Origin: a virus
IMG/VR virus record: IMGVR_UViG_3300025879_000070
Location: 1-30,287 of that record
DNA: 30,287 nt
Direction: 5' to 3' (one strand)
Position numbers and translations under genes: made by a program. The notes under the pieces were generated by a model, which was not told the origin of the DNA, made no database searches, and saw nothing but the letters and a program-made list of their open reading frames with translations. Shown in pieces: positions 481 through 15,177 of the stretch (position 1 is its first letter; every line of letters starts with the position of its first letter).

Positions 481-828
481 ATGGACTTAAGTAAGGTAAA
501 GAAAATAGTAGAAGAAATACTACCTAAAGTAATAGATAAGTACGGTTTTAGTAAATTTGCGGAATGTACACCATATGTGGAATACGAAAGAATGACACAC
601 GGAGATACACCTCATGCAGAGTATGATAATATAACTAATAGTATAATTATCTACTACCCTAAAATGAGAAGTAAGAAGCAAATAATACAGACTTTAATCC
701 ATGAGTATCAACACTACCTCCAGTCACCATCATGGATGACTAGGTATTATAGAATGGGTTATAGGTATGATAACCACCCTTACGAGATAGCGGCATACAA
801 CGAAGAAGTAAACTGGAATAAGATATGA
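481..828 (+). CDS. Small HExxH metalloprotease-like protein
   Basis: This 115-residue protein contains HEYQH at residues 74-78 followed by HPYEIAA at 99-105. The arrangement fits a zincin in which two His and a downstream Glu (E102) bind zinc and E75 is the catalytic base. The size and spacing recall SprT/WLM-like minimal metallopeptidases, but I cannot assign a family. It is unlike the preceding HExxH protein outside the motif, so the two do not look like a recent duplication. The start has no Shine-Dalgarno site; TATAAATA lies 8 bases before the ATG. Its last four bases overlap the start of the next gene (ATGA), suggesting coupled translation. The N-terminal segment MDLSKVKKIVEEI is helical with hydrophobic-x-Glu triplets at residues 9-12, so it could be a weak example of the capsid-targeting peptide discussed for its neighbours. 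Confidence 0.6.
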   Translation: MDLSKVKKIVEEILPKVIDKYGFSKFAECTPYVEYERMTHGDTPHAEYDNITNSIIIYYPKMRSKKQIIQTLIHEYQHYLQSPSWMTRYYRMGYRYDNHPYEIAAYNEEVNWNKI

Positions 829-1370
829 ATAAGAGTATAGTAGATTTATTAGAAGCCTATCCGATACCGGAACAAAAAGAGAAACCGCCATATAAGTTAT
901 ACTGTGATATGGATGGAGTATTGACAGATTTTCAAAGAAGATTTGAACACTACTCAGGAATGCAACCTAAAGAGTATGAGGATAAGTACGGAATAGCAGG
1001 TTTTTGGAATTTAATAGATGTTGAAGTAGGTATTGAATTTTGGGCTAAAATGCCATGGATGCCACAAGGAGAAAAATTATGGAATTTTATATCTCCATAT
1101 AATCCAGATTTATTAACATCACCTTCTAAAGATAATAACTCTAGATTAGGTAAGAATACATGGGTTAAAGATCATTTAAATCCTCCACCTAAAACTATAT
1201 TTGCTTACTCTAAAGATAAGCAGAGGTACGCTAATCCTAATGCAATCCTTATTGATGATAAGAAGTCTAACATACAGGAATGGGCAGCAAAAGGAGGAAT
1301 AGCAATTAGATGTAAAGATGGTAATGTAGATTACGTAATAGAGGAATTAAAAAAGTTAGGTTATGAGTAA
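825..1370 (+). CDS. HAD-superfamily 5'(3')-deoxyribonucleotidase-like phosphatase
   Basis: This 181-residue protein has the HAD signature CDMDGVLTDF at 27-36 (D28 would be the nucleophile and D30 the acid/base), a motif II candidate LLTSPS at 96-101, lysines near 110-115 for motif III, and the acidic motif IV LIDDKKSNI at 142-150. The combination and size match phage and bacterial 5' nucleotidases of the NT5C type, which dephosphorylate nucleoside monophosphates. A role in nucleotide salvage or pool control is likely, but the substrate is not proved. The first 20 residues (MNKSIVDLLEAYPIPE) precede the HAD core and contain L8-L9-E10, a possible gp21-type cleavage site, so the enzyme might be carried in the head. 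The start overlaps the previous gene by 4 bp and the end overlaps the next gene by 8 bp. Confidence 0.72.
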   Translation: MNKSIVDLLEAYPIPEQKEKPPYKLYCDMDGVLTDFQRRFEHYSGMQPKEYEDKYGIAGFWNLIDVEVGIEFWAKMPWMPQGEKLWNFISPYNPDLLTSPSKDNNSRLGKNTWVKDHLNPPPKTIFAYSKDKQRYANPNAILIDDKKSNIQEWAAKGGIAIRCKDGNVDYVIEELKKLGYE

Positions 1371-1941
1371 TGAATCACTATTAAAGAAGGAATTCAAACA
1401 TGCAGATGTACAGAGAGTTAGGAACTTAGTAAATAAGGATTTCACCTCTAAAACAAAAGCTCAAACAGGATATAGGAAGGTAACTGGAAGATATAAAGAA
1501 GGAGATGTCTGGGAGGAAAATGGAAAGCAGTGGACGATAAAAGACGGTATTAAACAAAATGTCACTAAATTAGATGCCGCTAAAAAAGCAGTAAGGATAC
1601 CTTTAAGATGTCCAAACTGCGGAGGACCTATGAAACACCATCTAGCTCAGAAGATGTATAAAATACACGGTTTTTGTTTCGACCCGTGTACTGTAGAGAT
1701 GGAAGCAGATTTAAGAAAAGCTGGTTTATACGAAAAGTATGAAAAACGAATGATGCAAGGTAGCATGACAGCTTTTGCTACAGATATAGAACAATGGGTT
1801 TTAGATGCTGTAAATTCACAAAATACCTTTGTAACGGAACAAGGAGATATAGAAGATTGGAAATCTAACTCATCAGAGAAAAAGAAACTTGCTGCTAATA
1901 TCAAACAATACCTTACACATTTATCAGAACACGTAAAATAG
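1363..1941 (+). CDS. Conserved phage protein with Cys4 zinc site
   Basis: This is a 192-residue protein with four cysteines in two pairs, CPNC at 83-86 and CFDPC at 105-109, separated by a His/Lys-rich loop (KHHLAQKMYKIHGF). This is a likely zinc-ribbon or treble-clef-like structural zinc site. The central segment (GDVWEENGKQWTIKDGIKQN, about 47-66) reads as a small beta domain and I recall it from T4-like marine phages, where no function is established. The C-terminal half is helical and charged. The ATG at 1363 lies inside the end of the preceding gene, with another possible ATG at 1370 in a different frame; the chosen frame gives MSNESLLKKEF. It could be a regulator or a structural accessory protein. 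Confidence 0.6.
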   Translation: MSNESLLKKEFKHADVQRVRNLVNKDFTSKTKAQTGYRKVTGRYKEGDVWEENGKQWTIKDGIKQNVTKLDAAKKAVRIPLRCPNCGGPMKHHLAQKMYKIHGFCFDPCTVEMEADLRKAGLYEKYEKRMMQGSMTAFATDIEQWVLDAVNSQNTFVTEQGDIEDWKSNSSEKKKLAANIKQYLTHLSEHVK

Positions 1942-1943
1942 AA

Positions 1944-1953
1944 CTATTTATTA
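1944..1953 (+). promoter_or_regulatory. Putative late promoter box upstream of 1970 gene
   Basis: CTATTTATTA, 16 bases before the ATG of the membrane-segment protein. It belongs to the recurring CTATTTATAA family in this window, with one mismatch. Confidence 0.4.
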
Positions 1954-1969
1954 GTAAAACTATTTTAGA

Positions 1970-2323
1970 ATGACTCAAAAGCAGATTTTAGAGACTGTAT
2001 TAACGGAATTATCTTCTATTAAAAAACAGATGCCTAATGGTGAGCTTAAGCAAATGCAGAAGGATATGGAGAAAGCTACACAAGATCTATCTGATTTAAA
2101 ATTTACTCTACTAAACCCAGATAATGGAGTTATAGTAAATACAAATAAGAATACAGAATTTAGAAAGAATCTTCAGGCAGAAGAAAAAGAATTTCAATCT
2201 AAATTAATGGAATTAGAATCTTTGAAGTCATGGAAGAATGGTGTAGCAAAAGCACTATGGATTATCTTTGCAACTTTAGCAGGATTAATAATTAGAGCTT
2301 TATCGCAAATTACAGGATCATAG
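1970..2323 (+). CDS. Small coiled-coil protein with C-terminal membrane segment
   Basis: This is a 117-residue protein. Residues 1-48 and 62-88 are Lys/Glu-rich with heptad-like spacing and are probably coiled coil. Residues 91-110 (GVAKALWIIFATLAGLIIRA) are a single hydrophobic span followed by a short tail. This architecture, an N-terminal coiled coil and a C-terminal anchor, resembles XhlA-type holin accessory proteins, and a lysis or membrane role is conceivable. No lysis enzyme is adjacent, so I leave the function open. A CTATTTATTA box lies 16 bases before the ATG, suggesting its own transcription start. There is no Shine-Dalgarno site. Confidence 0.55.
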   Translation: MTQKQILETVLTELSSIKKQMPNGELKQMQKDMEKATQDLSDLKFTLLNPDNGVIVNTNKNTEFRKNLQAEEKEFQSKLMELESLKSWKNGVAKALWIIFATLAGLIIRALSQITGS

Positions 2324-2324
2324 T

Positions 2325-2651
2325 ATGAAAAAAAGTGAACTAATAAATATAGTAAGAGAGGTTATTGACGAGAAAAAGAAAAGACCGGGTCTTTGGGCGA
2401 ATATTAACGCTAAGAGAAAAAGAGGTGAAAAACCTTCACATGGGAACTCTAATGCCCATAAAGCAGCAGTAGCAGCAGGGAAGAAGATTAAAAAAGAAGA
2501 TATAGACGAACCAGTTAAACCAGGTATATTAAAAGATAGGTTAGGTTCTCTTTCCTGCAGTAAAGTAAGAAAAGAGAAATCTAAGTTAAAAGACAAGGGT
2601 ACACACTACGCTAAAGCTCTTCAAAGATACTTAAATTACCACTGTCAATAA
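2325..2651 (+). CDS. Small basic protein with capsid-targeting-like N-terminus
   Basis: This is a 108-residue, strongly basic protein. It opens with MKKSELINIVREVIDE, an amphipathic helix with V10-R11-E12, like the N-termini at 5220 and 11798. The next segment (RPGLWANINAKRKRGEKP, about residues 20-37) is one I recall as a recurring small module in marine T4-like phage proteins. The rest is Lys/Ala-rich with a C-terminal helical stretch ending NYHCQ. A basic protein with a removable leader would fit a DNA-binding internal head protein, by analogy with T4 IPs, but this is inference. It begins 1 base after the previous stop and is followed by an intergenic CTATTTATAA motif. Confidence 0.55.
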   Translation: MKKSELINIVREVIDEKKKRPGLWANINAKRKRGEKPSHGNSNAHKAAVAAGKKIKKEDIDEPVKPGILKDRLGSLSCSKVRKEKSKLKDKGTHYAKALQRYLNYHCQ

Positions 2652-2668
2652 ATACACATCTTTACAAT

Positions 2669-2678
2669 CTATTTATAA
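2669..2678 (+). promoter_or_regulatory. Putative late promoter box upstream of 836-aa gene
   Basis: CTATTTATAA, 24 bases before the ATG at 2703, in a 51-base intergenic spacer with no Shine-Dalgarno sequence. Same motif and similar spacing as the other boxes. Confidence 0.5.
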
Positions 2679-2702
2679 TCAAGAAGAAAAACTTATTCCA
2701 TA

Positions 2703-5213
2703 ATGACATATCAAGAAATCAAAGACCGTTTAACAAAATGCGAAGTAGCACTAACTCAGATTAAAGACGGTAATTACAATTCTTTATCAACACCGGATTT
2801 AGAAAAAGCTAAAGAAAAACTAGAGTTAATAAGAGAATCTCTAACTAAAAAATTAAGATTATTAAAAGAAGAAGATATGGGCGATGACGGGTATGTTGCA
2901 ACAGATGATGAAGGTAAAGCAGAAGATTTAGCTAAAAAAGGAGTTAAAGTAAAATTAACTAATGAACAAGAAGGCATAGAATTTTCAGCTCAAGAGATGA
3001 AAGTAATTGCTAAAAAAGTAGGAGAAAGCTTAATCAAAGCATTAAGAGCAGTTGGTGATGAGATAGACACTATAAAAGCTCATGATTTCGATATAAATAC
3101 TTTTGAAGTATATGTTAGATATAAGAATGATTTCGAAGATGAGTTTGTATTCGATGTAAGGGATGATAAATTACATCTAGTCGATTTTTCTTTTGATAAA
3201 GAGTTAGTTGATGTAGGAATTAAACCCTCAGGTGAAGCTATACTAAATGTAGATGTCTTAGCTAATGAGTTAACAAAGCATTTTAAAGCACTGAATGAAC
3301 AGGAATATTCAAAAGATATAGAGGTAGGAGCTGACGAGTATGAAGAGTACGAAAAACTGAAACAAGATCTAAACAAACCTAAAGAAGCAAAAAAACAGGT
3401 TAACGAAGAAGATACACCTATCCAGAAGTACCTTAGGATATTTGATATGTACAAAAAAGCTCCTAGTCATGATCAAGATAGAATAAGACCACAGCTACTT
3501 AAAGCTGCAAAAAAAATAGGCATAAAATTAGATTTAGGCGGTATCTCCGAAGCACCGGAAGGAATGTTCTATATTACAGTATCAATTAGAGATGCTAGGA
3601 AAGCAATAAGTATATTAGACGACAGGTACAGAAAAGAAGTAACCTTTAATGGTTCAAACTCATACTACTTTAACTCAGAACAAACTGCATACGATGCATT
3701 AGAGGATTTTGGTGCTAACGATGTAGAAGTAGAAGATACTAATTTAGACTTATTTGCAGAAAATAATGAAGGAGTAAATAACGAAAAAGAAATCGTTGGA
3801 CAGGAACTAGTTGACTATATAATGAAGAATTGGGATTGGTCAGAAGAAAAGACACTAAAATTCCTTGCTGACAAACTCGGAAATAGACAAGCAGTAGATG
3901 AAACAGAAACTCCAGAAGGAGGTATTGATCAAGGTGGAGACTTAGATGTAGGGCATCAAGATGATGAGCCGAGTATGCTTAAAAAAGATTTATACGATAT
4001 AGCTGTTTATGCTTCTAAACTATATAAGCAATTAGATAAATACGACAAAATGGATGGAGAAGTAGATTTTCCTCATTGGTGGCAAAAGAAAGTAACTCTA
4101 GCTAGACAGTATATATCATCAGCACAGCATTATTTAGAAGCAGAAGAAAAACAACCTATGATAGATGCTTTAGCTCTTCAAGAAGGGAAGCAGACAGAAG
4201 CAGAACTAAAAGATAAATGGAGAGAGTGGAATAAGAAGCACCCTAAAGATCAAATTGACTGGAATGAATATAGAGAAGAACATGAAGATGAACTTATAAA
4301 AGAAGCTAACATAAACCCAGAAGTAACAAAATTAGTTAATAGATTTATAGGAGGATTAGCAAAAAGGTACGACTACGATACACAGTCAGCTGTTAATGCA
4401 ATAATGACAGTACTAAGAAATCAAAGTTGGGAAGGAGTTAATGAAGACCACTCAGACATCCCAAACGATAGGTACGAAGTAAAATATTCAAAATCTAATG
4501 ATACTTATCAAGTATGGGAAGGTGATGTTTTAGTAACCGACTTTGCAACTGAAGAAAGAGCAAAAGCCGAAGCGAAAAGACTAAATGACTTAGAAGATGC
4601 TAGAAGAGTAGATAAATCTCAAGTAGGAGAAGATAGAAGTAAAAGAAGAAAATTTATGGGTATATTCCCAACATCAAAAACTTCTTTTCAACGAGTTATA
4701 AAAAATATTGATAAACCCTCATTAGAAAAATTGATTAAATTTACTAAATCTAATGGTGATTTTATTGAAAACATCCACCAAAGCATATGGGGATACACAA
4801 AAGAAAGTGGGGAAGATAACCAAGCAGTTTGGCATTATGATAATAAAAGTAATGATTTGTTGTTTATTAATAAGGATTTCCCAACAATATATGATGAATA
4901 TATTCGTAAAGAATTAAATAACAATATGTCTGAGGATTTAGATGAAGACCATTCTAAAGACCCTAACGATAAATATGTAGTACGACCGTGTAAGAATAAA
5001 AAAGAACCTTGGGCTGTATGGGAAGGAGAAAAGAGAGTTAAAGGATTTGCAGAAAAGAAAGATGCTAAAGCATTTGCAGATAAAAAAAATAAAGAACAGG
5101 GACTAAACGAGCAGAAGTCAACTTGTTGCGGTAAATGTGGTAGAAAACACATTAAAGGAACAAAATGTAAAACACCTTATTTAAAAGGAGCTGATCACTG
5201 TAGAAATAAATAA
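2703..5213 (+). CDS. 836-residue mosaic protein, possible gp21-processed polyprotein
   Basis: A long acidic protein made of unrelated modules. Residues 1-60 are coiled coil. About 90-195 is an alpha/beta unit. About 238-345 holds a helical piece and a YITVSIRDARKAISIL domain. About 425-490 is helical (LYDIAVYASKLYKQL, GEVDFPHWWQKK) and is a segment I recall from other T4-like phages. Residues 535-577 are helical. Two related modules at about 588-630 and 756-798 (YQVWEGDVLVTDFATEERAKA and PWAVWEGEKRVKGFAEKKDAK) resemble DUF2188. The C-terminus 805-836 carries CC, CGRKH, KCK and DHC and may bind zinc. Module borders often coincide with (L/V)-x-E triplets: LNE 197-199, VNE 233-235, IKE 532-534, VNE 579-581, LDE 746-748, LNE 801-803. 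Its function is unknown. A CTATTTATAA box ends 24 bases before the ATG. Confidence 0.6.
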   Translation: MTYQEIKDRLTKCEVALTQIKDGNYNSLSTPDLEKAKEKLELIRESLTKKLRLLKEEDMGDDGYVATDDEGKAEDLAKKGVKVKLTNEQEGIEFSAQEMKVIAKKVGESLIKALRAVGDEIDTIKAHDFDINTFEVYVRYKNDFEDEFVFDVRDDKLHLVDFSFDKELVDVGIKPSGEAILNVDVLANELTKHFKALNEQEYSKDIEVGADEYEEYEKLKQDLNKPKEAKKQVNEEDTPIQKYLRIFDMYKKAPSHDQDRIRPQLLKAAKKIGIKLDLGGISEAPEGMFYITVSIRDARKAISILDDRYRKEVTFNGSNSYYFNSEQTAYDALEDFGANDVEVEDTNLDLFAENNEGVNNEKEIVGQELVDYIMKNWDWSEEKTLKFLADKLGNRQAVDETETPEGGIDQGGDLDVGHQDDEPSMLKKDLYDIAVYASKLYKQLDKYDKMDGEVDFPHWWQKKVTLARQYISSAQHYLEAEEKQPMIDALALQEGKQTEAELKDKWREWNKKHPKDQIDWNEYREEHEDELIKEANINPEVTKLVNRFIGGLAKRYDYDTQSAVNAIMTVLRNQSWEGVNEDHSDIPNDRYEVKYSKSNDTYQVWEGDVLVTDFATEERAKAEAKRLNDLEDARRVDKSQVGEDRSKRRKFMGIFPTSKTSFQRVIKNIDKPSLEKLIKFTKSNGDFIENIHQSIWGYTKESGEDNQAVWHYDNKSNDLLFINKDFPTIYDEYIRKELNNNMSEDLDEDHSKDPNDKYVVRPCKNKKEPWAVWEGEKRVKGFAEKKDAKAFADKKNKEQGLNEQKSTCCGKCGRKHIKGTKCKTPYLKGADHCRNK

Positions 5214-5219
5214 TACATT

Positions 5220-5834
5220 ATGAAAGTAGGAGAATTAAAGTTACTCATAGAGGAAGCATATATACAAGTATTAAGAGAATCTGAAGAACCTAAACCTGAA
5301 GATCCAATAGGTGATGAAGAAGCAGGACCGGAGACAGTATTAGAAGATGCTACAGAGACTATGCTTCAGAAATTCCCAACACTAAAAGCTACTCTCATTA
5401 AATTAATGACTAGAGACTTCAATGAATTTGTAGATACAATTGATTGGGTATCACCTAAACCAACTACATTCAGAATTAACTTAGTTAATGGACAGGACTT
5501 TACTATGAAATGGTCTGGCAAAAATTTCCAAGCTAAGATACAAGGTAAGAAATACTTCTTAGGACAGTTAGATGAGTTCCAACAAGCATTAGATAAATTA
5601 GCATTACTTTATCAAGAAGCACCACTTAAAGGAGCAGGAGAAGAAGGAGAACCAGGTGCTGAAGGTGGGGAAGCAGATTTCGGTTCCGGAGGCGGTGGAG
5701 GAGATTTCCCTGGAGAAGAAAGTGGAGGAGAAGCAGGCGGTGAAGCTGGTTTCGATGATGCAGGAGGAGCAGAAGAACCAACCGATACATCAGGAGATAT
5801 AGATTTCGAAGCAGGAGAAGAACCTGAAGCATAA
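5220..5834 (+). CDS. Gly/Glu-rich head-module protein with capsid-targeting-like leader
   Basis: This is a 204-residue protein in three parts. The leader MKVGELKLLIEEAYIQVL is a helix with I10-E11-E12. The middle (about 45-135) is a compact fold with strands (TTFRINLVNGQDFTMKWSG) followed by a helix. The tail (about 137-204) is extremely rich in Gly, Glu and Ala and is probably disordered. The low-complexity tail is encoded by purine-rich DNA (5626-5834), so slippage or length variation between strains is plausible. I do not recognise the central domain. Its place among proteins with similar leaders suggests a packaged head component or scaffold accessory. The gene starts 6 bases after the previous stop. 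Confidence 0.55.
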   Translation: MKVGELKLLIEEAYIQVLRESEEPKPEDPIGDEEAGPETVLEDATETMLQKFPTLKATLIKLMTRDFNEFVDTIDWVSPKPTTFRINLVNGQDFTMKWSGKNFQAKIQGKKYFLGQLDEFQQALDKLALLYQEAPLKGAGEEGEPGAEGGEADFGSGGGGGDFPGEESGGEAGGEAGFDDAGGAEEPTDTSGDIDFEAGEEPEA

Positions 5835-5845
5835 TAATAATAATC

Positions 5846-6322
5846 ATGGAAAATAATTTTAATTTAAAAAAGTTTTTAGTAGAGAATAAACTTACTGTTA
5901 ATAGTAGGATACTAAGTGAAGCATCCGGAAAATCGGAAGCTTTAGCAAAAGCGAAAGCATCTCATGACGCAAAAATGAGTAAACTAAAGGGTCAATCTCA
6001 AGGTGCTTCTGGTGGAGTTACTCGTGCTCGAGAAGATAAAGAGATAGAGAGGTACGAGAAAGAGGTAGAGAGAATTAATAAAAAATTTACTAATAACGAA
6101 GTAGCTAACGGTAGTAGTGAAGCATCCGGAAAATCGGAAGCTTTAGCAAAAGCGAAAGCATCTCATAACGCAAAAATGAATAAACTAAAGGGTCAATCTC
6201 AAGGTGCTTCTGGTGGAGTTACTCGTGCTCGAGAAGATAAAGAGATAGAGAGGTACGAGAAAGAGGTAGAGAGAATTAATAAAAAATTTACCAATAACGA
6301 AGTAGACCTAAAAGGACTATAG
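5846..6322 (+). CDS. Charged repeat protein with capsid-targeting-like leader
   Basis: This is a 158-residue protein. It opens with MENNFNLKKFLVENKLT, nearly the same as the N-terminus of the protein at 14356, with L11-V12-E13 as a possible gp21 cleavage site. The body is two almost identical 63-residue units (residues 24-86 and 91-153), each starting SEASGKSEALAKAKASH, passing through a Gly/Ser/Gln stretch and ending in a charged helix (EIERYEKEVERINKKF). Only two residues differ between the units (D/N and S/N). The body is basic and helical, and I do not recognise it. It may be an internal head protein. It starts just after a run of TAA/ATA codons downstream of the 5220 gene, with no Shine-Dalgarno site. 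Confidence 0.55.
   Translation: MENNFNLKKFLVENKLTVNSRILSEASGKSEALAKAKASHDAKMSKLKGQSQGASGGVTRAREDKEIERYEKEVERINKKFTNNEVANGSSEASGKSEALAKAKASHNAKMNKLKGQSQGASGGVTRAREDKEIERYEKEVERINKKFTNNEVDLKGL
5915..6304 (+). repeat. Tandem duplication, two 189-bp copies at 201-bp period
   Basis: Unit 1 is 5915-6103 and unit 2 is 6116-6304, separated by 12 bases (6104-6115). I count three differences in 189 bases: GAC to AAC and AGT to AAT, both amino-acid changing, and ACT to ACC, silent. The period is 67 codons, so the frame is kept. Such high identity implies a recent in-frame duplication. Confidence 0.95.
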
Positions 6323-6325
6323 TAA

Positions 6326-7321
6326 ATGAATACAATAGATAAAGTTTTATTAGAATGGTCTCACAAGACTGACAAAGGATACCCAGATATAAATTCGAAG
6401 GAGGATATGGATTTATTTGAATCTATGTTTGGGTTTAGGTTGAATGAAGAGGAAGACAGCGTACAAGACGATGTTGCTGAACTTACTAAATCTGAAATCG
6501 ATGAGATGTTAAAGGCTATAGATAAGGTAAAAGAAAAGTATGTTAGGTATTTAAGTGTATTTGCATACTTTGATAATAATTCACTTGGAACTATTTCTGA
6601 AGTTTTACTTACAAAGCTTTTACAAAAGACAGGAGTTCAAGCTTCGCATACCGGAGCCTCTGGAGGATTAGCCGATTTATATATTAACGGTAAACCAGTA
6701 AGTTTAAAAACTACTGTAGGTGTAACCAAAATAGGATTAGGAAACGATCAAGCTAGACTTAATGCTACTGATATTGACAGTGTAGTAAAAATACTTAAAA
6801 CACTAGATCCTAACTCTTATTCATCTATTTTAGATCTGAAAGATAAAATTGAACCTAATCTTTACCAAGTTTTAGTTAATAGGGTGGATTCAATTGCTGA
6901 AAAATTAGCAGGACCAAAAAACAAAGAGTACTTTGTATGGGTTGAAAAAATATTCGATAATAAAACTAAGGTATTAACAGATTTTAAAATACACGTAGCT
7001 AAATACGATCTCAATAAGGTTAAAAAAGAAATGATGAATATGAAACCATATGCATCAAGTAATTCATGGGGTTTGAAAGATCCTGGATTAGGCGGTAAAA
7101 ATGCTGTTACAGCTGATGCAGGTAGTAAGTATTTAAACGTAGAACCTAACTTTGTTAGGAAAACCACTGCGAAAACAGCACGAACTATAAAACTAATACA
7201 ACCAGAAGATATAGAAGGGTTAGATAAAAACGTTATAAGTCAAAACATTACAGATGCTTTATTTAATAAATTAGATGATTTATATACAAGTTTAGGTCTA
7301 GGTAAAGATAAAGTAAACTAA
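6326..7321 (+). CDS. Possible PD-(D/E)XK-type nuclease
   Basis: This is a 331-residue protein. The N-terminal segment (residues 1-43) starts MNTIDKVLLEWSHKTDKGYP and includes L8-L9-E10, a hydrophobic-x-Glu triplet like those of its neighbours. I recall similar W-S-x-K-x-x-x-G-x-P-D openings in marine T4-like phage proteins. The candidate catalytic core is E92 in TISEVLL, D117 in GGLADLYI and S126-L127-K128 in GKPVSLKTT. The pattern E, then D, then (S/E)-x-K after a short hairpin is typical of PD-(D/E)XK endonucleases and Holliday-junction resolvase-like folds, and HTGASGGLADLY has the look of restriction-type cores. The C-terminal half is not recognised. If correct, it would cut DNA; a nuclease next to terminase could act on host DNA after injection or in packaging. 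The fold call is tentative. Confidence 0.5.
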   Translation: MNTIDKVLLEWSHKTDKGYPDINSKEDMDLFESMFGFRLNEEEDSVQDDVAELTKSEIDEMLKAIDKVKEKYVRYLSVFAYFDNNSLGTISEVLLTKLLQKTGVQASHTGASGGLADLYINGKPVSLKTTVGVTKIGLGNDQARLNATDIDSVVKILKTLDPNSYSSILDLKDKIEPNLYQVLVNRVDSIAEKLAGPKNKEYFVWVEKIFDNKTKVLTDFKIHVAKYDLNKVKKEMMNMKPYASSNSWGLKDPGLGGKNAVTADAGSKYLNVEPNFVRKTTAKTARTIKLIQPEDIEGLDKNVISQNITDALFNKLDDLYTSLGLGKDKVN

Positions 7322-7347
7322 CACCCACTTCTTTTATTTTACACAAG

Positions 7348-7357
7348 CTATTTATAC
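7348..7357 (+). promoter_or_regulatory. Putative late promoter box upstream of gp17
   Basis: CTATTTATAC, 13 bases before the terminase ATG at 7371, in a 49-base spacer. It fits a -10-like element with a very short leader. Confidence 0.5.
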
Positions 7358-7370
7358 AAAAGAGTCATAA

Positions 7371-8945
7371 ATGGCACAAGACATAAAAAAGATTATAGCA
7401 CAGGAATATCTAAGATGTGCTAAAGATCCAGCTTACTTCATGAAGAAGTATTGTTATATTCAACACCCTACCCGAGGTAGGATACTATTTAACCTATACC
7501 CTTTCCAATCAGAAGTACTACATTTATTTAAAGACAATCAATATATCATAACATTAAAGTCAAGACAGTTAGGTATTTCTACCTTAGCTGCTGCTTATAG
7601 TTTATGGTTGATGTTATTTCATAAAGATAAGAACGTACTTGCTTTAGCGACAACACAAGCTACAGCACGTAACTTAGTTTCTAAAACTATGTTTATGTAT
7701 GACCAACTACCTAAGTGGTTGAAATTACCTGCAGTAGAGAAAAATAAACTATCTTTAAGACTTAAAAACGGATCAAAGATAACAGCAAAATCATCTAATG
7801 CAGATGCTGCTCGTTCGGAAGCGGTATCGTTATTATTGATTGATGAGGCAGCGTTTATTGATAATATTGAAGAGACCTTTGCAGCAGCACAACAAACACT
7901 AGCAACAGGTGGTCAGTGTATGGCTTTATCAACTCCTAACGGAATTGGTAACTGGTTTCATCAGACATGGGATAAAGCAGAAACAGGAGAAAATTCTTTT
8001 CTACCGGTAAAATTACCTTGGACAGTACATCCGGAGAGAAAACAAGATTGGAGAGATCAACAGGATAAAGACCTAGGACCAAGGATGGCAGGTCAGGAAT
8101 GTGACTGTGACTTCTTAGCATCAGGTGATACAGTATTTGAACCAGACGATCTAACATTCTATGAACAAACCTACCAGAAAGATCCTATGGAAAAAAGAGG
8201 AGTAGACGGTAATTTATGGATATGGGAACAACCTGACTATACTAAATCATATATGGTTGTATCCGATGTAGCTCGAGGAGATTCTAAGGATTACTCTGCA
8301 TTTCATGTATTCGATATAGAATCAGCAACTCAAGTAGCTGAATATAAAGGTAAGGTATCTCCTAAGGATCTAGGTAATATACTAGTTGCAATAGCATCAG
8401 AATACAATGATGCATTACTTGTTGTAGAAAATGCAAACATAGGATGGGCTACTATTGAACAGGTGATGGAAAGGGAATACCGTAATTTATATTATAGTCC
8501 TAAAAGTCAAATGGACACTGTAGAATCCTATATGGGTAAATACGAAAGAGATCAACTAGTACCAGGATTTACAATGTCTATGAAAACTCGTCCTCTTGTA
8601 TTAGCAAAGATGATGGAGTATATACGTGAGAAATCTGTTACAATACAGTCTAAGCGATTGATGGCTGAGATGAGAGTATTTGTATGGAAGAACGGTAAAG
8701 CACAAGCACAGACAAATTATAACGATGATTTAATAATGTCTTTCGCAACAGCACTATATGTTCGAGATACAGCTTTAAGATTAAGACAGCAGGGTATGGA
8801 CTTAGCTAGAGCACAACTTTCCTCTTTCACAAACCTAAATGCTAGAAACCAATCCATCATATCTTCAGTAGGTTCCCAAGCAAATAATCCGTATATTGTT
8901 AAGACGGATCATGGAAATGAGGATATTTCTTGGATAATAGGATAA
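7371..8945 (+). CDS. 17: Terminase large subunit (gp17-like)
   Basis: This 524-residue protein is the ATPase-nuclease motor that pumps DNA into the prohead through the portal and cuts the concatemer. The N-terminal ATPase has a Walker A-like SRQLGIST at 64-71, Walker B LLLIDEA at 154-160 with the catalytic Glu at 159, and the coupling motif STPNG at 187-191. The C-terminal RNase H-like nuclease has D299 in VVSDVARGD, E353 in LLVVENANIG and NDD at 451-453. Length and order of motifs match T4 gp17, though T4 gp17 is somewhat longer. It is followed directly by the portal gene with no sheath or tube gene between. A CTATTTATAC box ends 13 bases before the ATG. No small terminase (gp16) is visible. 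Confidence 0.95.
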   Translation: MAQDIKKIIAQEYLRCAKDPAYFMKKYCYIQHPTRGRILFNLYPFQSEVLHLFKDNQYIITLKSRQLGISTLAAAYSLWLMLFHKDKNVLALATTQATARNLVSKTMFMYDQLPKWLKLPAVEKNKLSLRLKNGSKITAKSSNADAARSEAVSLLLIDEAAFIDNIEETFAAAQQTLATGGQCMALSTPNGIGNWFHQTWDKAETGENSFLPVKLPWTVHPERKQDWRDQQDKDLGPRMAGQECDCDFLASGDTVFEPDDLTFYEQTYQKDPMEKRGVDGNLWIWEQPDYTKSYMVVSDVARGDSKDYSAFHVFDIESATQVAEYKGKVSPKDLGNILVAIASEYNDALLVVENANIGWATIEQVMEREYRNLYYSPKSQMDTVESYMGKYERDQLVPGFTMSMKTRPLVLAKMMEYIREKSVTIQSKRLMAEMRVFVWKNGKAQAQTNYNDDLIMSFATALYVRDTALRLRQQGMDLARAQLSSFTNLNARNQSIISSVGSQANNPYIVKTDHGNEDISWIIG

Positions 8946-8949
8946 ACGA

Positions 8950-8961
8950 TATTTATAAATA
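8950..8961 (+). promoter_or_regulatory. Putative late promoter box upstream of gp20
   Basis: TATTTATAAATA contains the recurring motif (8950-8958) and, overlapping it, TATAAATA (8954-8961) in T4 late orientation. The portal ATG follows at 8972. Confidence 0.5.
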
Positions 8962-8971
8962 AACTAGATAA

Positions 8972-10894
8972 ATGGCAGATACTTCACTCTTTAAACGATT
9001 AGGTAGATTATTTTCTTCTGACGTAGTGATTAGAAACGTAGGTGGTGATCAACTAAAAGTCGCAGATGTAAATCAAATACAAACTACCGGTAGGTATGAA
9101 ACTAATTCTCTAGTAGACAGGTTTTCAAGATTATATATTTACAACAACAAGAATATATTTAACCCAAATTTAAATTACCAAACACTCCGTATACAGTTAT
9201 ATTCTGACTACGAAGCAATGGATACAGATCCATTAATAGCATCAACACTGGATATATTAGCAGATGAAGCTACACTAAAGAGTGATATGGGAGAAGTACT
9301 TTCAATCAAATCCTCTGACGAAAATATACAAAAAGTACTTTATAACTTATTTTACGATGTTTTAAACATAGAATTCAACTTATGGTCTTGGACACGTAAT
9401 ATGTGTAAATACGGTGATTTTTTCCTTAAATTAGAGATAGCAGAGGAGTTTGGAGTATATAACGTACTACCGTATACTGTCTACCATATGACAAGACAAG
9501 AAGGGCAAGACCCGGAAAATCCTGCTAAAGTTACTTTTCAATTAGATCCTGATGGTTTAGCATCATCACAAGATCCTAACTACAGACCTAAGAGTAACGA
9601 CAAGGTGGTCGAATTTGATAACTACGAAGTTGCTCACTTTAGATTAATATCAGACACTAACTACCTACCTTATGGCCGTTCTTTTATAGAACCAGCAAGA
9701 AAAATATTTAAACAGTTAACTTTAATGGAAGATGCGATGTTAATTCACCGTATCATGAGAGCACCAGAAAAGAGAACATTTTACGTTAATGTAGGACAAA
9801 TACCGCCGAATGAAGTTGAGCAGTTTATGCAAAAAACTATTAACGGTATGAAAAAAACTCCATACGTTGATCCTAATACTGGAGATTACAACCTTAGATT
9901 CAATATGATGAATATGATGGAAGACTTCTACCTACCGGTAAGAGGAGGAGATACATCAACTAAGATTGAGACTACTAAGGGATTAGAGTACGACGGAACA
10001 AATGACATTGAATACCTTAGAGATAAGATGTTTGCTGCATTAAAGGTACCTAAAGCGTATTTTGGATATGAAAAAGATCTTTCAGGTAAAGCAACTTTAG
10101 CAGCAGAGGATATAAGATTTGCTAGAACAGTAGAAAGAATACAAAGAATATTAGAATCTGAACTTACTAAAATTGCACTAGTACATTTATACGTTCAAGG
10201 GTTTAAAGGAGAGTCATTAACTAATTTTGAAATTAAGTTAACTAATCCTTCTATCATTTTTGAACAAGAAAAAATAGCTCTATTAAAAGAAAAAGTAGAT
10301 TTAGCATCACAGATGTTAGATACTAAATTATTCCCAACAGACTACGTTTACGACCATATCTTCAATATATCAGAAGATAAGTATATGGAGATGAGAGACC
10401 TAGTTACGGAGGATTATAAACGATTATTTAGAATTACTCAAATAGAAAATGAAGGGAATGATCCTGCAAAATCAGGTAAATCTTACGGTACACCTCATGA
10501 TTTAGCATCTCTCTACGGTAGAAGAAAAGGAGAAGATAAAGGTACATCCTTTGGAGAAGTACCTGCAGGATATGAAGATGAAGTAGGAGGTATAGGAGAG
10601 ATAGGTCCTGAAGGAGGTCGTCCTAGAACACATGCCTCACACTACGGAACAAACTCAGGACTAGGAGGTAGGGATCCACTTGGAAAACAAGGAATGAAAG
10701 GAGGCTACGATTCAGACAATGAAAACGTAAATGAGAATGAAAATAAAGAGAAAGTAGATAATACCCTTGCAAAGTCTCTTTTTTATAAAAATAAAAGCAT
10801 GTTTACAGATAAGAAGCAAATAATTTTTGAGAATAAAGAAGAAGAAGAGGATAAGTTACTGGATGAATCACAAATCCAAGATTTAGATAATTAA
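8972..10894 (+). CDS. 20: Portal protein (gp20-like)
   Basis: This is a 640-residue protein. It should form the dodecameric ring at the head vertex through which DNA enters and to which terminase and the neck bind. The central and C-terminal core has gp20-type segments such as DGTNDIEYLRDKMFAALKVP and the stem/helix region KATLAAEDIRFARTVERI at about 372-390. From about residue 496 the sequence changes to a Gly- and Asp/Glu-rich, probably disordered tail of about 145 residues (GEVPAGYEDEVGGIGEIGPE, then an Asn/Glu/Lys-rich end). T4 gp20 is about 524 residues, so the tail is an addition. The start lies 13 bases after the TATTTATAA motif (8950-8958). Confidence 0.92.
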   Translation: MADTSLFKRLGRLFSSDVVIRNVGGDQLKVADVNQIQTTGRYETNSLVDRFSRLYIYNNKNIFNPNLNYQTLRIQLYSDYEAMDTDPLIASTLDILADEATLKSDMGEVLSIKSSDENIQKVLYNLFYDVLNIEFNLWSWTRNMCKYGDFFLKLEIAEEFGVYNVLPYTVYHMTRQEGQDPENPAKVTFQLDPDGLASSQDPNYRPKSNDKVVEFDNYEVAHFRLISDTNYLPYGRSFIEPARKIFKQLTLMEDAMLIHRIMRAPEKRTFYVNVGQIPPNEVEQFMQKTINGMKKTPYVDPNTGDYNLRFNMMNMMEDFYLPVRGGDTSTKIETTKGLEYDGTNDIEYLRDKMFAALKVPKAYFGYEKDLSGKATLAAEDIRFARTVERIQRILESELTKIALVHLYVQGFKGESLTNFEIKLTNPSIIFEQEKIALLKEKVDLASQMLDTKLFPTDYVYDHIFNISEDKYMEMRDLVTEDYKRLFRITQIENEGNDPAKSGKSYGTPHDLASLYGRRKGEDKGTSFGEVPAGYEDEVGGIGEIGPEGGRPRTHASHYGTNSGLGGRDPLGKQGMKGGYDSDNENVNENENKEKVDNTLAKSLFYKNKSMFTDKKQIIFENKEEEEDKLLDESQIQDLDN

Positions 10895-10897
10895 TTA

Positions 10898-10907
10898 CTA
10901 TTTATAA
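10898..10907 (+). promoter_or_regulatory. Putative late promoter box upstream of 10947 gene
   Basis: CTATTTATAA, 39 bases before the ATG, directly after the portal stop. The longer leader contains AAGGGG far from the start. Confidence 0.5.
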
Positions 10908-10946
10908 CAGTAAGGGGTACCAAAAGTACTGCAAAACTACAAGATA

Positions 10947-11801
10947 ATGCGCATCAAACACAGTAAGTATAGAAATACAGGGCTCATATTTGAACTATTA
11001 GTTAAGCAAATCGCTGCTGATACACTAAGCAAAAAAGACTCTCCAGCCGTAGCTATTCTTAAAAAGAATTTTACAGGTAAAACAGCTTTAGTTCGTGAAT
11101 TTAAATTATATGAGTTTATCTTAAAAAATAAATCTGTCCCACAATCCAAAGCAGAATCAATAGTATCTACAATAATTGAAGTCTCTAGAGGAATGGATAG
11201 AAACATTTTAAAGAAACAGAGGTACAACCTTATCAAAGATATAAAAGAGAGTTATAACTTAGAAGAGTTTTTCTCAATAAGTATAAATGACTACAAACCA
11301 TTAGCCGCTCTATACTGTTTAATGGAAGCTCACAAAGTAACTGATGTAGTAGATCCTAATTTTTTAGTTGACAATAAAACAACTATTTTAGAACACCTTA
11401 CAAAAGAGCAGCAAAATAAAGCACAAGTAAGAGATACGTTAATTGAAGAGTATTCAAAATATGACAAAGACTTAAAACTTCTTACCTTCAAAATTCTACT
11501 CGAAAAATTTAACAATAAATACGACTCTCTTCTCCCAGAACAGAAAAATGTACTAAAAGAATTTATAACATCAGTTGACTCTTCTAATAGATTACGTACA
11601 ATAGTTAATAAAGAATTTCACAAATTAAAAGAAGAAATTCTTAAATTAAAAGAGAGTATAGGAGATGAGATTGTAGCAATTAAATTACAGGAAGTTGTAA
11701 AAACTATTGAACCAGTTTCTAAATTGAAAAAAGTAACTGATGATCATCTTGTAAATATAATGCAATATTACGAATTAGTTCAAGAATTAAAAGAACTATG
11801 A
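10947..11801 (+). CDS. Conserved helical head-module protein, possible prohead core component
   Basis: This 284-residue protein is almost entirely alpha-helical, Lys- and Leu-rich. It begins MRIKHSKYRNTGLIFELLVK, a sequence I recall as conserved in marine T4-like phages at this position, with no assigned function. In T4 the interval between gp20 and gp21 holds prohead core proteins gp67 and gp68, so a core or assembly role is plausible by position only. The ATG at 10947 is preceded by a 49-base leader after the 10898 CTATTTATAA box. Its stop overlaps the next ATG (ATGA), so translation of the following small gene is likely coupled. Confidence 0.6.
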   Translation: MRIKHSKYRNTGLIFELLVKQIAADTLSKKDSPAVAILKKNFTGKTALVREFKLYEFILKNKSVPQSKAESIVSTIIEVSRGMDRNILKKQRYNLIKDIKESYNLEEFFSISINDYKPLAALYCLMEAHKVTDVVDPNFLVDNKTTILEHLTKEQQNKAQVRDTLIEEYSKYDKDLKLLTFKILLEKFNNKYDSLLPEQKNVLKEFITSVDSSNRLRTIVNKEFHKLKEEILKLKESIGDEIVAIKLQEVVKTIEPVSKLKKVTDDHLVNIMQYYELVQELKEL

Positions 11802-12061
11802 AAATAAGTCAATTAAGAGAACTTATTAAAGAAGTACTTCATGAAATAAATGAAGTTAGTACAACAGGAACTGGTGCTAGTTTTACACCGGGTACAGGAG
11901 CGCAGTACGCAACTCCTAATGCTTTTTCTAAAAATAGCAAAAAAAATAATGCTACTAAATACGCAGAAAAACTTGGGTATAAAGTAGCAAAGAATAAAAA
12001 GAGACCGTATAATACAAAAATGTTCGACTACTTAGATGAAGACACTACAGGAAAAATATAA
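11798..12061 (+). CDS. Small protein with targeting-like leader and gp23-like arm motif
   Basis: This is an 87-residue protein. The leader MKISQLRELIKEVLHEINEV contains I10-K11-E12, L14-H15-E16 and I17-N18-E19, any of which could be cut by a gp21-type protease. It is followed by STTGTGASFTPGTGAQYATP, which matches the region just after the likely cleavage site of the major capsid protein (SNTGTGASFNAGGGEQW). The rest is basic (KNSKKNNATKYAEKLGYKV) and ends in an acidic tip. It may be a small capsid-associated or internal protein sharing a processed N-terminal arm with gp23. It overlaps the preceding gene by 4 bp and the next by 26 bp. Confidence 0.6.
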   Translation: MKISQLRELIKEVLHEINEVSTTGTGASFTPGTGAQYATPNAFSKNSKKNNATKYAEKLGYKVAKNKKRPYNTKMFDYLDEDTTGKI

Positions 12062-13772
12062 TGCAATTTTAGAGGGAAAGTTCCCTAAAGCACAGTTTGT
12101 TAGAGACGCTCGTATGGAGCTACCTAACCTAATTACTCAATTCAACGGATTTGAAGACACTACTACTATTTTAAAGAATAGAGGAATGATATTTGAAGCT
12201 AAGAAAGTAGAGGTAGAAGAGTACGATAAACCAGCACCAGGTTACTCTATCGAAACATTAGAAAGAGCAGTAGACTATGAAATTGAAGGATTGGGATTAC
12301 AATCTCAAGAAACAGTATCAGAAGAAGACTACGCAAAAGCTAAAGCAAAAGCAGAAAAAAACTTAGATAAAGATCCAAACCACTACTTAGACTTACTTTC
12401 AGGTGAGTCTAATAAAGTTGATAAACATGACAAATATGTAGAGGTTAAGAAAAATAATCACGTAGATACTTTTAATGGAATGAAAAAAGCTGAATTAAAG
12501 GAAAGTATTGTTGAAAAAGCAATGGCGAAAGGGTACACAAAAGAGCAAGTTGAAGCAGCATTAAGTAGACTAAAAGAAAAGAAAGGAACAGACCACGACG
12601 GAGATGGTGACATCGATGGTGATGATTACATGGCTGCTAAAGATAAAGCTATCAAAAAAGCAATAGGCAAAAAAGTAAATGAAGCAGATCATAATTTCAA
12701 GGAAGGAGATAAAGTATCTGTATTTATGAGAGGTACTAAAGCTAATGGACCAGAAGAAGTAACAATAGTTGCAATGGATCCATCTGGAGTTGCTATTGTT
12801 AAGAATGTAGAAGGACAAGAAGATGAGGTATTTATTAAAGATATGCAGCCTGTTCAACAAGTAAAGGAAGTAGAAGCGTCAATAGAACCTCAAAAACTAC
12901 AAGATATGGGATATAGTGCTGGAGAAAAAGCATTAATGGATTTAGATTCAGAAATCTTCAATCAACCGCATTTTGATAGTTATGCAAGCGGTTTTATTAA
13001 AGGCTTTCAAGACAATATTGAAGCAAGTCAAGACTATGCAGCTCACTATGTTAACGAAGGTAGACGTAGAAAAATGAAAGGCGGTAAAGTAGTAACAGAA
13101 AATGATTATGAAACCGGCGGATATGTAGAGTCTATGGGGCCTATGTTAGATAAGGTACTAAAACAACTTATTGCCGTATGGGATGAATGGAAAGAAGGAC
13201 CAGCAACAGAACCAGGTATGGTTCCTTTTGCTAAAAAAGATTTAGTAAGCTATATTGACAGTAAAATATCTGAAGGAGAAGATATTGTAGAACATACTGT
13301 AGAAGAGCATAAAGAAATAAAAGAAGCATTTAAAGCTATTATTTCTAAAGTACTTAAAGAAGAAGTAATAACAGAAGCAGCTACAGGGAATCTAGCTAAT
13401 ATAGCAGATACGTATAATGATTTCGAAGGAATGCAATCAGCAGTTAATGCATTAGAGAACATTGTAACAGATGTAGAATCTTACTATGCTAAGACAAAAG
13501 AAAAGATTCAAAAAGTATATGATAGCTTCAATAACATTAAAAACCCAGAAGGGATAGTAATGGGAGCTCTTATCGGACCTGCTATTGAAAGCGCATTTAA
13601 AAAAGACCTAATACCAGTTGCATCTAAAGGATTTACAGAAGGATTAAAATTACCTCAAGTTAAGATGTTAAAACCAGGTGATGTACAGGAGGAAGAGTTA
13701 GAAGAAAAAGCAACAGTATTTACTCCTATCAATGAAACAAGAAAGAGAAAATACACTAAAAGTAAAAAATAA
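12036..13772 (+). CDS. 578-residue mosaic head-module protein with EF-hand-like loop
   Basis: It begins MKTLQEKYNAILEGKF, close in pattern to T4 internal-protein targeting peptides, with I11-L12-E13 as a possible cleavage site. The segment at about 16-55 (AQFVRDARMELPNLITQFNG) I recall as conserved in related phages. Residues 186-197 (DHDGDGDIDGDD) fit a canonical EF-hand calcium loop (D at 1, 3, 5; G at 6; I at 8; D at 12). Modules follow: a beta domain near 217-270, helical segments at 284-335, a helical unit from about 362 to 410, and a C-terminal helical part. VNE triplets at 214-216 and 339-341, ITE at 445-447 and INE at 565-567 fall between modules. Its start lies inside the previous gene. 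Lying directly before gp21, it may be a core or scaffold polyprotein. The function is not established. Confidence 0.6.
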   Translation: MKTLQEKYNAILEGKFPKAQFVRDARMELPNLITQFNGFEDTTTILKNRGMIFEAKKVEVEEYDKPAPGYSIETLERAVDYEIEGLGLQSQETVSEEDYAKAKAKAEKNLDKDPNHYLDLLSGESNKVDKHDKYVEVKKNNHVDTFNGMKKAELKESIVEKAMAKGYTKEQVEAALSRLKEKKGTDHDGDGDIDGDDYMAAKDKAIKKAIGKKVNEADHNFKEGDKVSVFMRGTKANGPEEVTIVAMDPSGVAIVKNVEGQEDEVFIKDMQPVQQVKEVEASIEPQKLQDMGYSAGEKALMDLDSEIFNQPHFDSYASGFIKGFQDNIEASQDYAAHYVNEGRRRKMKGGKVVTENDYETGGYVESMGPMLDKVLKQLIAVWDEWKEGPATEPGMVPFAKKDLVSYIDSKISEGEDIVEHTVEEHKEIKEAFKAIISKVLKEEVITEAATGNLANIADTYNDFEGMQSAVNALENIVTDVESYYAKTKEKIQKVYDSFNNIKNPEGIVMGALIGPAIESAFKKDLIPVASKGFTEGLKLPQVKMLKPGDVQEEELEEKATVFTPINETRKRKYTKSKK

Positions 13773-13773
13773 G

Positions 13774-14352
13774 ATGAATAACTTATTAGTAGATATAACA
13801 TCCTTTAAACCAGTAATACGAGAGTCGAAAGAAAGACCGGGGGTATTCGAGGTAGAAGGTATACTTCAAAGAGCAGGAGCTAAAAACCAGAATGGTCGAG
13901 TATACGATAAGACATTACTTGAAAGAGAAACTAAGAAGTATATAGAGGAATTCGTAAAAGTGGGTAACGCCTTTGGAGAATTAGATCATCCAGAATCTGC
14001 TGTTGTCTCTCTAAAGAACGCATCACACGTAATAAAAGAACTATGGTGGAAAGGAGATGACCTTATGGGACGTATAGAACTACTAAATACTCCGGCAGGT
14101 AATATTGTAAAGGAAATATGTAAAGCAGGTCATACAATAGGGATTTCATCAAGAGGAACAGGTTCAGTACAACAAACAAACGAAGGAACTTTAGAGGTAC
14201 AACCTGATTTTGAATTAGTATGTTGGGATTTTGTTTCTAATCCATCTACACATGGTGCATTCATGAACCCGGTTAGTTTAAATGAAGGTAAGCAACAAAC
14301 AAATAAGTACGGAAAATTAAACACAATAATAAACGATATATTAAGAGCATAA
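13774..14352 (+). CDS. 21: Prohead maturation protease (gp21-like)
   Basis: This 192-residue serine protease should cleave scaffold, capsid and internal proteins inside the prohead at hydrophobic-x-Glu sites. The catalytic candidates are H72 in GELDHPES, S125 or S126 in GISSRG, and D152 in CWDFVSNPS, the arrangement of the T4 gp21/herpesvirus-type fold. I place the start at 13774 (MNNLLVDITSFKP), one base after the stop of the preceding gene. An upstream ATG at 13732 is in frame but lies within the previous gene and adds a poorly conserved lysine-rich stretch. The C-terminal end contains SLNEGK, a possible self-cleavage site. It lies between the core/accessory proteins and gp22, as expected for T4-like phages. 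Confidence 0.9.
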   Translation: MNNLLVDITSFKPVIRESKERPGVFEVEGILQRAGAKNQNGRVYDKTLLERETKKYIEEFVKVGNAFGELDHPESAVVSLKNASHVIKELWWKGDDLMGRIELLNTPAGNIVKEICKAGHTIGISSRGTGSVQQTNEGTLEVQPDFELVCWDFVSNPSTHGAFMNPVSLNEGKQQTNKYGKLNTIINDILRA

Positions 14353-14355
14353 AAA

Positions 14356-15177
14356 ATGGAAAACAATTTTAACTTAAGAAAATTCTTAACAGAAAACAAA
14401 CTAACAGGTAATAGTAAGTTATTAAAAGAGAGTCCAAACGATATTATATGGACAGACGAAGAGGAAGACACTGGTAGTCACGGTACATTCAATCAATTAG
14501 ATTTAGGTGCATCTGAATTAGACTACTACGAAGTAGAGTTACTAGGGTACAGTCCTAGTACAGGAAAAGCATACTCTGGACAAACTTCTGGAGAGTATGG
14601 AGAGGTTGACTATGACAACATAGATGGAATAAAAGAAATGAATCCAAGAGAGACAGAAAACTATATAGCAAGTCTTAAAAAATACGAACCAGAACACTAT
14701 AGTAAGTTTACAGGTAATAGTAGACAAGTAGATGAAGAGAGTGGAGGTACATTCTTTAAAGCAACAGTAAACTTGGCAGATAAACCTGGTGTAGATTACG
14801 GTTATACCTTACATGCACAAGATGAAGAAAGTGCTAAAGCAGAATTAGCTAGCAAATTACAAGGTCAAGAATACCAACTTAAGGACTTAAAAGGACCTTT
14901 TACTCCTCAACCTAAACAAGGAGAAATTTCATCTAAAGTTGATAAATCATCAATTGAAATAGATGGAGTAGATTCAACAGACTATCCAGATTTTGTTGAT
15001 GCTTTTATATCAGCAGCTAATTTTGAGGATGGAACACCATTAACAGATGATGAATTAGATCAATTAGGAGATGAAATGTCAGATGAGATTCACCAAATGG
15101 CTTACGATAGTTTAATGGAAGGATTAAGTGAAAGAGAAAAGACATTAAAAGAAGAAGTATTAAAAGCTTTAAAATAA
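14356..15177 (+). CDS. Head-module accessory protein sharing the 5846 leader
   Basis: This is a 273-residue acidic protein. It starts MENNFNLRKFLTENKLTGNS, almost the same 20 residues as the protein at 5846, with L11-T12-E13 as a possible cleavage point, followed by an unrelated body. Residues 25-120 are Asp/Glu/Ser/Tyr-rich. A central segment (about 135-175) looks like a small beta domain. The C-terminal segment near 200-255 (DYPDFVDAFISAANFEDGTP, then LTDDELDQLGDEM) resembles a module I recall from cyanophage proteins of unknown function. It begins four bases after the gp21 stop and is followed by a terminator, so it is probably the last gene of the portal-protease transcript. Confidence 0.6.
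   Translation: MENNFNLRKFLTENKLTGNSKLLKESPNDIIWTDEEEDTGSHGTFNQLDLGASELDYYEVELLGYSPSTGKAYSGQTSGEYGEVDYDNIDGIKEMNPRETENYIASLKKYEPEHYSKFTGNSRQVDEESGGTFFKATVNLADKPGVDYGYTLHAQDEESAKAELASKLQGQEYQLKDLKGPFTPQPKQGEISSKVDKSSIEIDGVDSTDYPDFVDAFISAANFEDGTPLTDDELDQLGDEMSDEIHQMAYDSLMEGLSEREKTLKEEVLKALK

Follow-up and report, generated by a model that had tools for sequence, protein, structure and literature searches.

The internal proteins injected by T4-like phages include early counter-defence proteins and are nearly unrecognisable by sequence. The head block of an uncultured T4-like myovirus, held in the 30,287-bp IMG/VR virus record IMGVR_UViG_3300025879_000070 (the whole stretch analysed, referred to as the window in the following), raises the question why proteins with unrelated bodies should begin with short, similar leaders that end in hydrophobic-x-Glu, as they do in many aquatic relatives of this phage as well. 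Very probably, these N-termini are removable packaging propeptides, interchangeable modules that belong to several families.

A first-pass annotation had quoted nine such N-termini as one capsid-targeting-like family, and all nine are encoded where it placed them. Position 83 can be added to the list, and perhaps also positions 1970 and 20582, while 481 is a weak and 12036 an ambiguous case. Judged by the terminase (77% identity), the isolate closest to this phage is Flavobacterium phage vB_FspM_immuto (hereafter immuto), the gene order of which is the same. The window features with leaders are the following:

83 to 115, plus strand: candidate leader MASILEYMIDE of the HExxH protein 83-442, with [LIV]xE at residue 11; absent from the first-pass list
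481 to 516, plus strand: weak candidate leader MDLSKVKKIVEE of the HExxH protein 481-828, with [LIV]xE at residues 11 and 12
825 to 854, plus strand: leader MNKSIVDLLE of the 5'-deoxyribonucleotidase gene 825-1370 (phrog_2643, E 1.5e-25, match from residue 20)
2325 to 2372, plus strand: class A leader MKKSELINIVREVIDE of a small basic protein (2325-2651); groups with the MKKSQL leaders of immuto
5220 to 5279, plus strand: class A-like leader MKVGELKLLIEEAYIQVLRE of an acidic protein (5220-5834), with [LIV]xE at E11, E12 and E20
5846 to 5920, plus strand: class B leader MENNFNLKKFLVENKLTVNSRILSE of gene 5846-6322; leader common to at least 53 unrelated body clusters
6326 to 6448, plus strand: class D module of about 41 residues ending LNE, before a variable body (6326-7321); terL is the next gene downstream
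11798 to 11854, plus strand: class A leader MKISQLRELIKEVLHEINE of a small head-block protein (11798-12061) with 38 homologues
12036 to 13772, plus strand: polyprotein-like core-located protein with N-terminus MKTLQEKYNAILE, constant ends and a variable insert
14356 to 14430, plus strand: class B leader MENNFNLRKFLTENKLTGNSKLLKE of an acidic protein (14356-15177), the homologues of which keep E25

The motif occurs more often than chance would allow. [LIVFM]-x-E with its Glu at residues 8-14 opens 13 of the 19 window genes from position 83 to gp23, where 3.1 are expected from the rate in the interiors of the same window proteins (P = 2e-7), and 2 of the 10 genes downstream (1.0 expected). The complete genome of immuto is an independent demonstration of the same N-terminal enrichment, as 15 of 22 genes upstream of terL carry the motif versus 33 of the 200 remaining genes (Fisher P = 8e-7), the rate elsewhere being 15% among genes for replication and metabolism and 13% among those for neck and tail. 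Among proteins with unrelated bodies, Smith-Waterman comparison of N-terminal 25-mers gave 159 pairs scoring at least 40, a count that includes ordinary signal peptides and tail-fibre starts seen as separate groups, versus 19 pairs for residues 31-55, 3 for C-termini, 1 for shuffled N-termini and none for mid-protein segments. This matching and the families recovered from IMG/VR support the initial observation that leaders recur on unrelated bodies, while the assumption of one family does not hold: the sharing is real, but the nine N-termini fall into at least four types (2325/5220/11798; 5846/14356; 6326; 825 and 12036 each alone).

Class B, with the consensus MENNFNLKKFLVENKLTxNSKLLxE (5846, 14356), was traced in IMG/VR by a DNA pattern ending at the T of ENKLT. 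At least 154 matches were obtained, corresponding to at least 129 distinct proteins and at least 53 unrelated body clusters; among the matches listed, an ATG lies 3-4 codons upstream in 141 of 151, and past the search pattern NS[KR]xLxE follows, after which conservation drops to nil. This second [LIVM]xE, which the pattern does not force, is found 7 or 8 residues past the T in 51 of the 53 bodies listed (shuffling expectation 6.3, maximum 15). Class A, with the consensus MKKSELKQIIKEEIxKVLNE (2325, 5220, 11798 and several immuto genes), precedes 72 unrelated body clusters and has [LIVM]xE at E20 in 38 of these and at E16 in 18 more (2.7 expected each). Class D (6326) has invariant M1, E10, W11, G18, P20 and D27 and an LxE end before mostly unrelated bodies, with [LIV]xE at residues 37-48 in 51 of 51 distinct N-termini; in the AlphaFold model of 6326, residues 1-40 form a two-helix hairpin with a predicted local distance difference test score (pLDDT) of 83-92, which falls to about 42 beyond residue 40. 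Class E, M(I)KLxxLLxE, covers about 10 residues on 23 body clusters, and class C, [F/I]xRMQKLAGIITE, occurs on 10 different proteins whose bodies are unrelated to one another, with [LIV]xE at the same place in all 10. Upstream of terL, a fixed 41-residue class D hairpin precedes mostly unrelated, partly nuclease-like bodies in more than 20 phages, a locus reminiscent of swapped effector domains.

As conservation stops after the second [LIV]-x-E, most leaders are 16-41 residues long, and the cut after the Glu at residues 8-13 proposed in the first-pass annotation was placed too early: a conserved stretch does end at [LIV]-x-E, but usually at a later site. The likely final cuts predicted from these alignments are E25 in 5846 and 14356, E19 in 11798, E20 in 5220, E16 in 2325 and approximately E41 in 6326. 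In immuto, new N-termini are predicted after LLKE25 in gp077 (GSDYGYEAV), ILKE24 in gp076 (NSNTRS), LINE in gp003 (GQALSPDD), IITE22 in gp083 and gp230 (SQFNEE and SEMWDR), VLEE16 in gp072 (MSTTGAV) and IVSE in gp066, its gp23 (ANVTG). Homologues of 14356 keep E25 and then display indels of 0-3 residues right at the junction of leader and body.

The leaders are exchanged on the same body. The protein at 102294 of immuto (class A) and the one at 3857 of L150 (class B) are 66% identical over 170 columns in their bodies but have different leaders, and the same body (39%) stands behind a class E leader at 10567 of L037. Likewise, the 5'-nucleotidase starts with MNKSIVDLLE in the window, MKKVMGNLADLLLE in immuto and MIKLIDLLNE in L118, the nucleotidases of Melnitz and HTVC008M have yet other N-terminal extensions, and in those of Atu_ph07, Cr30 and OLIVR1 the catalytic DxDG is preceded by 6-8 residues, versus 27 in the window. 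As different leaders precede the same body or nucleotidase, the leader is an added, replaceable module. The immuto 102294 family, which has hydrophobic stretches and recurs behind three leader types, also occupies the slot after gp21 in L037 and L075; it could represent a membrane-active ejection protein.

With respect to the bodies, the first-pass annotation had envisaged a cargo of nuclease, nucleotidase, basic and acidic proteins. A leadered nucleotidase is present, gene 825 being identified as a 5'(3')-deoxyribonucleotidase (NT5C-like) by its phrog_2643 match and the DxDG motif (YCDMDG), with a Pfam NT5C score of 16.5 bits that is under the cut-off of this profile. Strongly basic and strongly acidic bodies are present as well, with 26 K+R versus 8 D+E in 2325 and 42 D+E versus 14 K+R in 5220, and 14356 is also strongly acidic. 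The nuclease assignment of 6326 is unconfirmed; a PD-(D/E)XK motif of the GGLADLYINGKPVSLKT type is visible there and in homologues, profile matches are absent and the AlphaFold model (pLDDT 48) is of low confidence in the body. Profile matches on leadered bodies comprise 5'-nucleotidase, Zeta-toxin-type kinase, NUDIX, HD domain and serine hydrolase, while most of the 125 leadered representatives match neither Pfam nor PHROG. ADP-ribosyltransferase-like (L236/L259, L228) and acetyltransferase-like (L233) bodies gave Pfam matches below the cut-off only and are not claimed. The body of 5846-6322 consists of two near-identical tandem repeats of about 60 residues each (ASGKSEALAKAKASH...).

Further features of the window are the following:

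7371: terminase (terL)
8972: portal
13777 to 14352, plus strand: S77 prohead protease, gp21-like (PF03420, E 4.2e-37, 121.7 bits, curated cut-off 27; phrog_207 head maturation protease, E 3.2e-53)
15382: gp22-like scaffold gene, assigned by synteny and N-terminal resemblance; no PHROG match
16459 to 16506, plus strand: C-terminal peptide VSDAVKRMQKLAGIIK of the gp22-like scaffold after VISE, with the same motif as class C leaders
16533 to 18098, plus strand: major capsid protein gp23 (phrog_138, E 1e-77), with a predicted maturation site IVSE before QSNTGTGASF
18235: PhoH; neck and tail genes are also in the window

The gp21-like protease noticed in the first reading of the block is thus confirmed by both profiles. 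An S77 gene is present in 9 of 9 class B records of at least 49 kb (among the matches listed) and in 13 of 19 class A records of at least 48 kb (7 of 8 of those of at least 90 kb), versus 1 of 7 control records drawn by a random 16-mer. In a scan of 84,980 bacterial and archaeal species genomes, the class B pattern was confined to a single 104-kb contig from a metagenome-assembled genome, and this contig encodes S77 as well. Within 50,697 records of isolate phages, immuto alone has a credible class B leader, and it alone has class C; a tblastn search with the class A leader found nothing in the isolate phages, which is not counted as absence because the query is possibly of low complexity. In record L240 (G049:C1:122029-123549) the S77 match is split in halves approximately 1.1 kb apart within one 570-codon frame, which suggests an in-frame insertion such as an intein.

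The predicted cleavage sites of capsid protein and leadered protein are alike. Alignment of 33 gp23 N-termini of these phages shows [IV]xE followed by ANxTNVGGxSFxxGxGEQ at the predicted maturation site, and the 11798 family has LxE followed by ANVTNVGGASFTPGxGAQ; 38 homologues of 11798 keep the LxE before a conserved [NS]xT start despite a 3-residue indel in the leader. The predicted mature start of 11798 thereby resembles that of gp23 (ANxTNVGGxSFxxGxG), as if mimicking the arm of the capsid protein.

A further connection leads to the scaffold, as the gp22 of the window ends with VISE-VSDAVKRMQKLAGIIK. The motif [RK]xMQxLAG[ILV] occurs 95 times in 5,583 collected proteins, namely 82 times at C-termini (69 in gp22, with gp22 identity among motif carriers judged by an N-terminal signature), 12 times at N-termini and once mid-protein, where it is flanked by LNE and ITE. 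[LIV]xE stands directly before the peptide in 79 of 81 scaffold-type C-termini. Being of the same kind as the terminal peptide of the scaffold, class C leaders are most simply understood as a core-docking tag. Class B leaders also occur inside fused open reading frames after LQE or MKE (4418-5893 of L119 reads leader, cargo, MKE, leader, cargo) and at the C-termini of proteins in L145, L181 and L197.

The 12036 protein looks like an arrangement related to these fused frames. Its family has constant ends (residues 1-158 and about 427-578) that enclose an insert reaching 641 residues at most, which is mostly missing in members of 292-295 residues, and the inserts contain 65 [LIV][NST]E sites versus 23 expected. 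In immuto, module 359-411 forms a leadered protein by itself (125241), whereas class B cargo in L117 and L151 has this module at its C-terminal end. The AlphaFold model has a low predicted template modelling score, and 14 of 21 [LIV]xE, next to 31 of all 67 Glu, lie in low-confidence stretches that make up 38% of the length, so that a preference of the sites for such stretches is only suggestive. Taken further, the leaders might be transplanted core-docking peptides, at least one of them the C-terminal peptide of the scaffold itself, which, bounded by protease sites, can be placed at either terminus or between domains and give rise to cargo polyproteins that the prohead protease separates in the head; this extended proposal is tentative, and we would not yet give it preference.

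The preferred sequence of events is as follows. During head assembly each leader would dock its protein to the prohead core, consisting of gp22, 12036-like and 11798-like proteins and the protease, whereupon the activated S77 protease would cut after the Glu of the [LIV]-x-E that closes the leader, the same specificity by which gp23 would be matured and the scaffold broken up. The body would remain in the head with the DNA and would reach the next host, and leaders would be usable at the N-terminus, between fused cargo domains and at the C-terminus. Docking, cleavage, encapsidation and delivery are steps that we infer from the sequence.

Among the alternatives, the one that survives best holds that the leaders load core proteins which are degraded or lost in maturation, most bodies being assembly aids and not delivered cargo. 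Many bodies are indeed small and acidic like T4 gp67, and some have further [LIV]xE sites, but several are enzymes (5'-nucleotidase, Zeta-type kinase, NUDIX, HD and serine hydrolase), which would be pointless as degradable scaffold, and this alternative is judged improbable. Slightly less probable again is that the leaders are permanent docking helices, never removed, for another virion site or partner such as portal, neck or vertex. The conservation of class D beyond E10 with its confident hairpin and the leader-like start of the neck-region protein 20582 would fit such a role, whereas the sharp end of conservation after [LIV]xE, the indels at the junction and internal leader copies flanked by cut motifs are what a cut site predicts.

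There is very little left in favour of a nucleic-acid element, a translation enhancer or recombination hot spot with the peptide incidental: some of the 13 upstream bases show mild conservation and the leader has a codon bias, but variation is greatest at third codon positions (0.71 bits versus 0.31 and 0.14, a comparison limited by the search pattern), one residue is encoded by several codons and unrelated leaders replace each other on the same body. Equally slight is the case for chance and composition, by which Lys/Glu-rich amphipathic N-terminal helices often hold hydrophobic-x-Glu, since the single cases 481 and 1970 are indistinguishable from it, but the shuffled, internal, C-terminal and downstream-gene controls and the near-identity of 20-25-residue leaders on at least 53 and 72 unrelated bodies disfavour it.

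Several points weigh against removable packaging propeptides nevertheless. As [LIV]xE is frequent in K/E/L-rich helices, 481, 1970 and 12036 are possibly chance cases. Classes B and D have an earlier conserved [LIV]xE before the boundary, which leaves the cut sites uncertain, and S77 was not detected in 6 of the 19 class A records of at least 48 kb, which are possibly fragments. The T4 leader MKTYQEFIAE was given correctly in the first-pass annotation (it begins IPII and IPIII, while IPI begins MKTFKEFTSTTTPVSTITE), but the window leaders have no similarity to it beyond the [LI]xE end. As only this end is shared, the leaders would work like the T4 capsid targeting sequence (CTS) without being homologous to it.

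Of the remaining features, genes 83 and 481 are candidate zinc metallopeptidases by their HExxH motifs: gene 83 displays a visible SFTHEMIHH motif (HEMIHH) with a weak, sub-threshold Pfam match, and gene 481 contains HEYQH with weak, sub-threshold matches to SprT-like and Peptidase_M78. The 836-residue product of 2703-5213 has repeated DHS..-type modules separated by VNE, LDE and LNE, and is possibly another cleaved polyprotein. The small neck-cluster protein 20582-20887 starts with the leader-like MKILNIISE (MKLTNIISE and MKLIDIISE in homologues); judging from this start, leadered proteins may be encoded also outside the head block.

With respect to applicability, the leaders single out dozens of proteins, not recognised otherwise, as probable cargo of the head, and a searchable leader turns many unannotated proteins into a testable cargo list across uncultured aquatic phages, with immuto as an isolate in which the cargo prediction is checkable. 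To our knowledge, the targeting mechanism is still open even for T4, and the shared scaffold peptide suggests a possible one. Between positions 18607 and 37015, immuto (NC_055915) encodes a 7-deazaguanine DNA-modification set, QueC, QueD, QueE, FolE and DpdA. As type IV restriction enzymes directed against modified DNA are inhibited by the internal proteins of T4 (PMC12373910), anti-restriction roles are plausible for some of the bodies, and the modification set may explain the need for injected anti-restriction proteins.

The principle of CTS-type leaders is already known from T4, the internal proteins of which resemble each other solely in a CTS of 10-20 residues, which serves their packaging and is cut off by gp21 (PMC3012670, PMC5694885, PMC12373910), while no report of the leaders described here was found in the open-access literature. 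New within the literature and data searched are leaders of different sequence in an aquatic lineage that is separate and mostly uncultured, as well as the several families per genome, the exchange of leaders, their location within proteins and at C-termini and the second use made of the scaffold peptide. As in T4 IPI-IPIII, the leader is the sole similarity among unrelated bodies, ends in (I/L)-x-E and is accompanied by an encoded S77 protease (PMC3012670, PMC12373910), and a location in the head would be shared as well, here as predicted from sequence. In contrast to T4, several leader families of 10 to 41 residues coexist in a genome, also at internal and C-terminal positions, and many more cargo types, enzymes included, are involved. 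Several inner-body proteins of phiKZ and SPN3US likewise possess N-terminal propeptides cut by a prohead protease at x-x-E, sometimes at multiple sites (PMC5694885), but these are mostly longer than 100 residues and belong to a different lineage, and it is the paralogues gp53 and gp54 that share an N-terminus there, whereas here unrelated proteins do. Finally, gp22 and gp67/gp68 of the T4 core are cleaved by gp21, and the window has a gp22-like gene before gp23, with 11798 and 12036 in the place of 67 and 68. The difference to the T4 core is that the insert of the 12036-type protein ranges from nearly absent to 641 residues and that the peptide at the C-terminus of the scaffold serves a second time as a leader on cargo.

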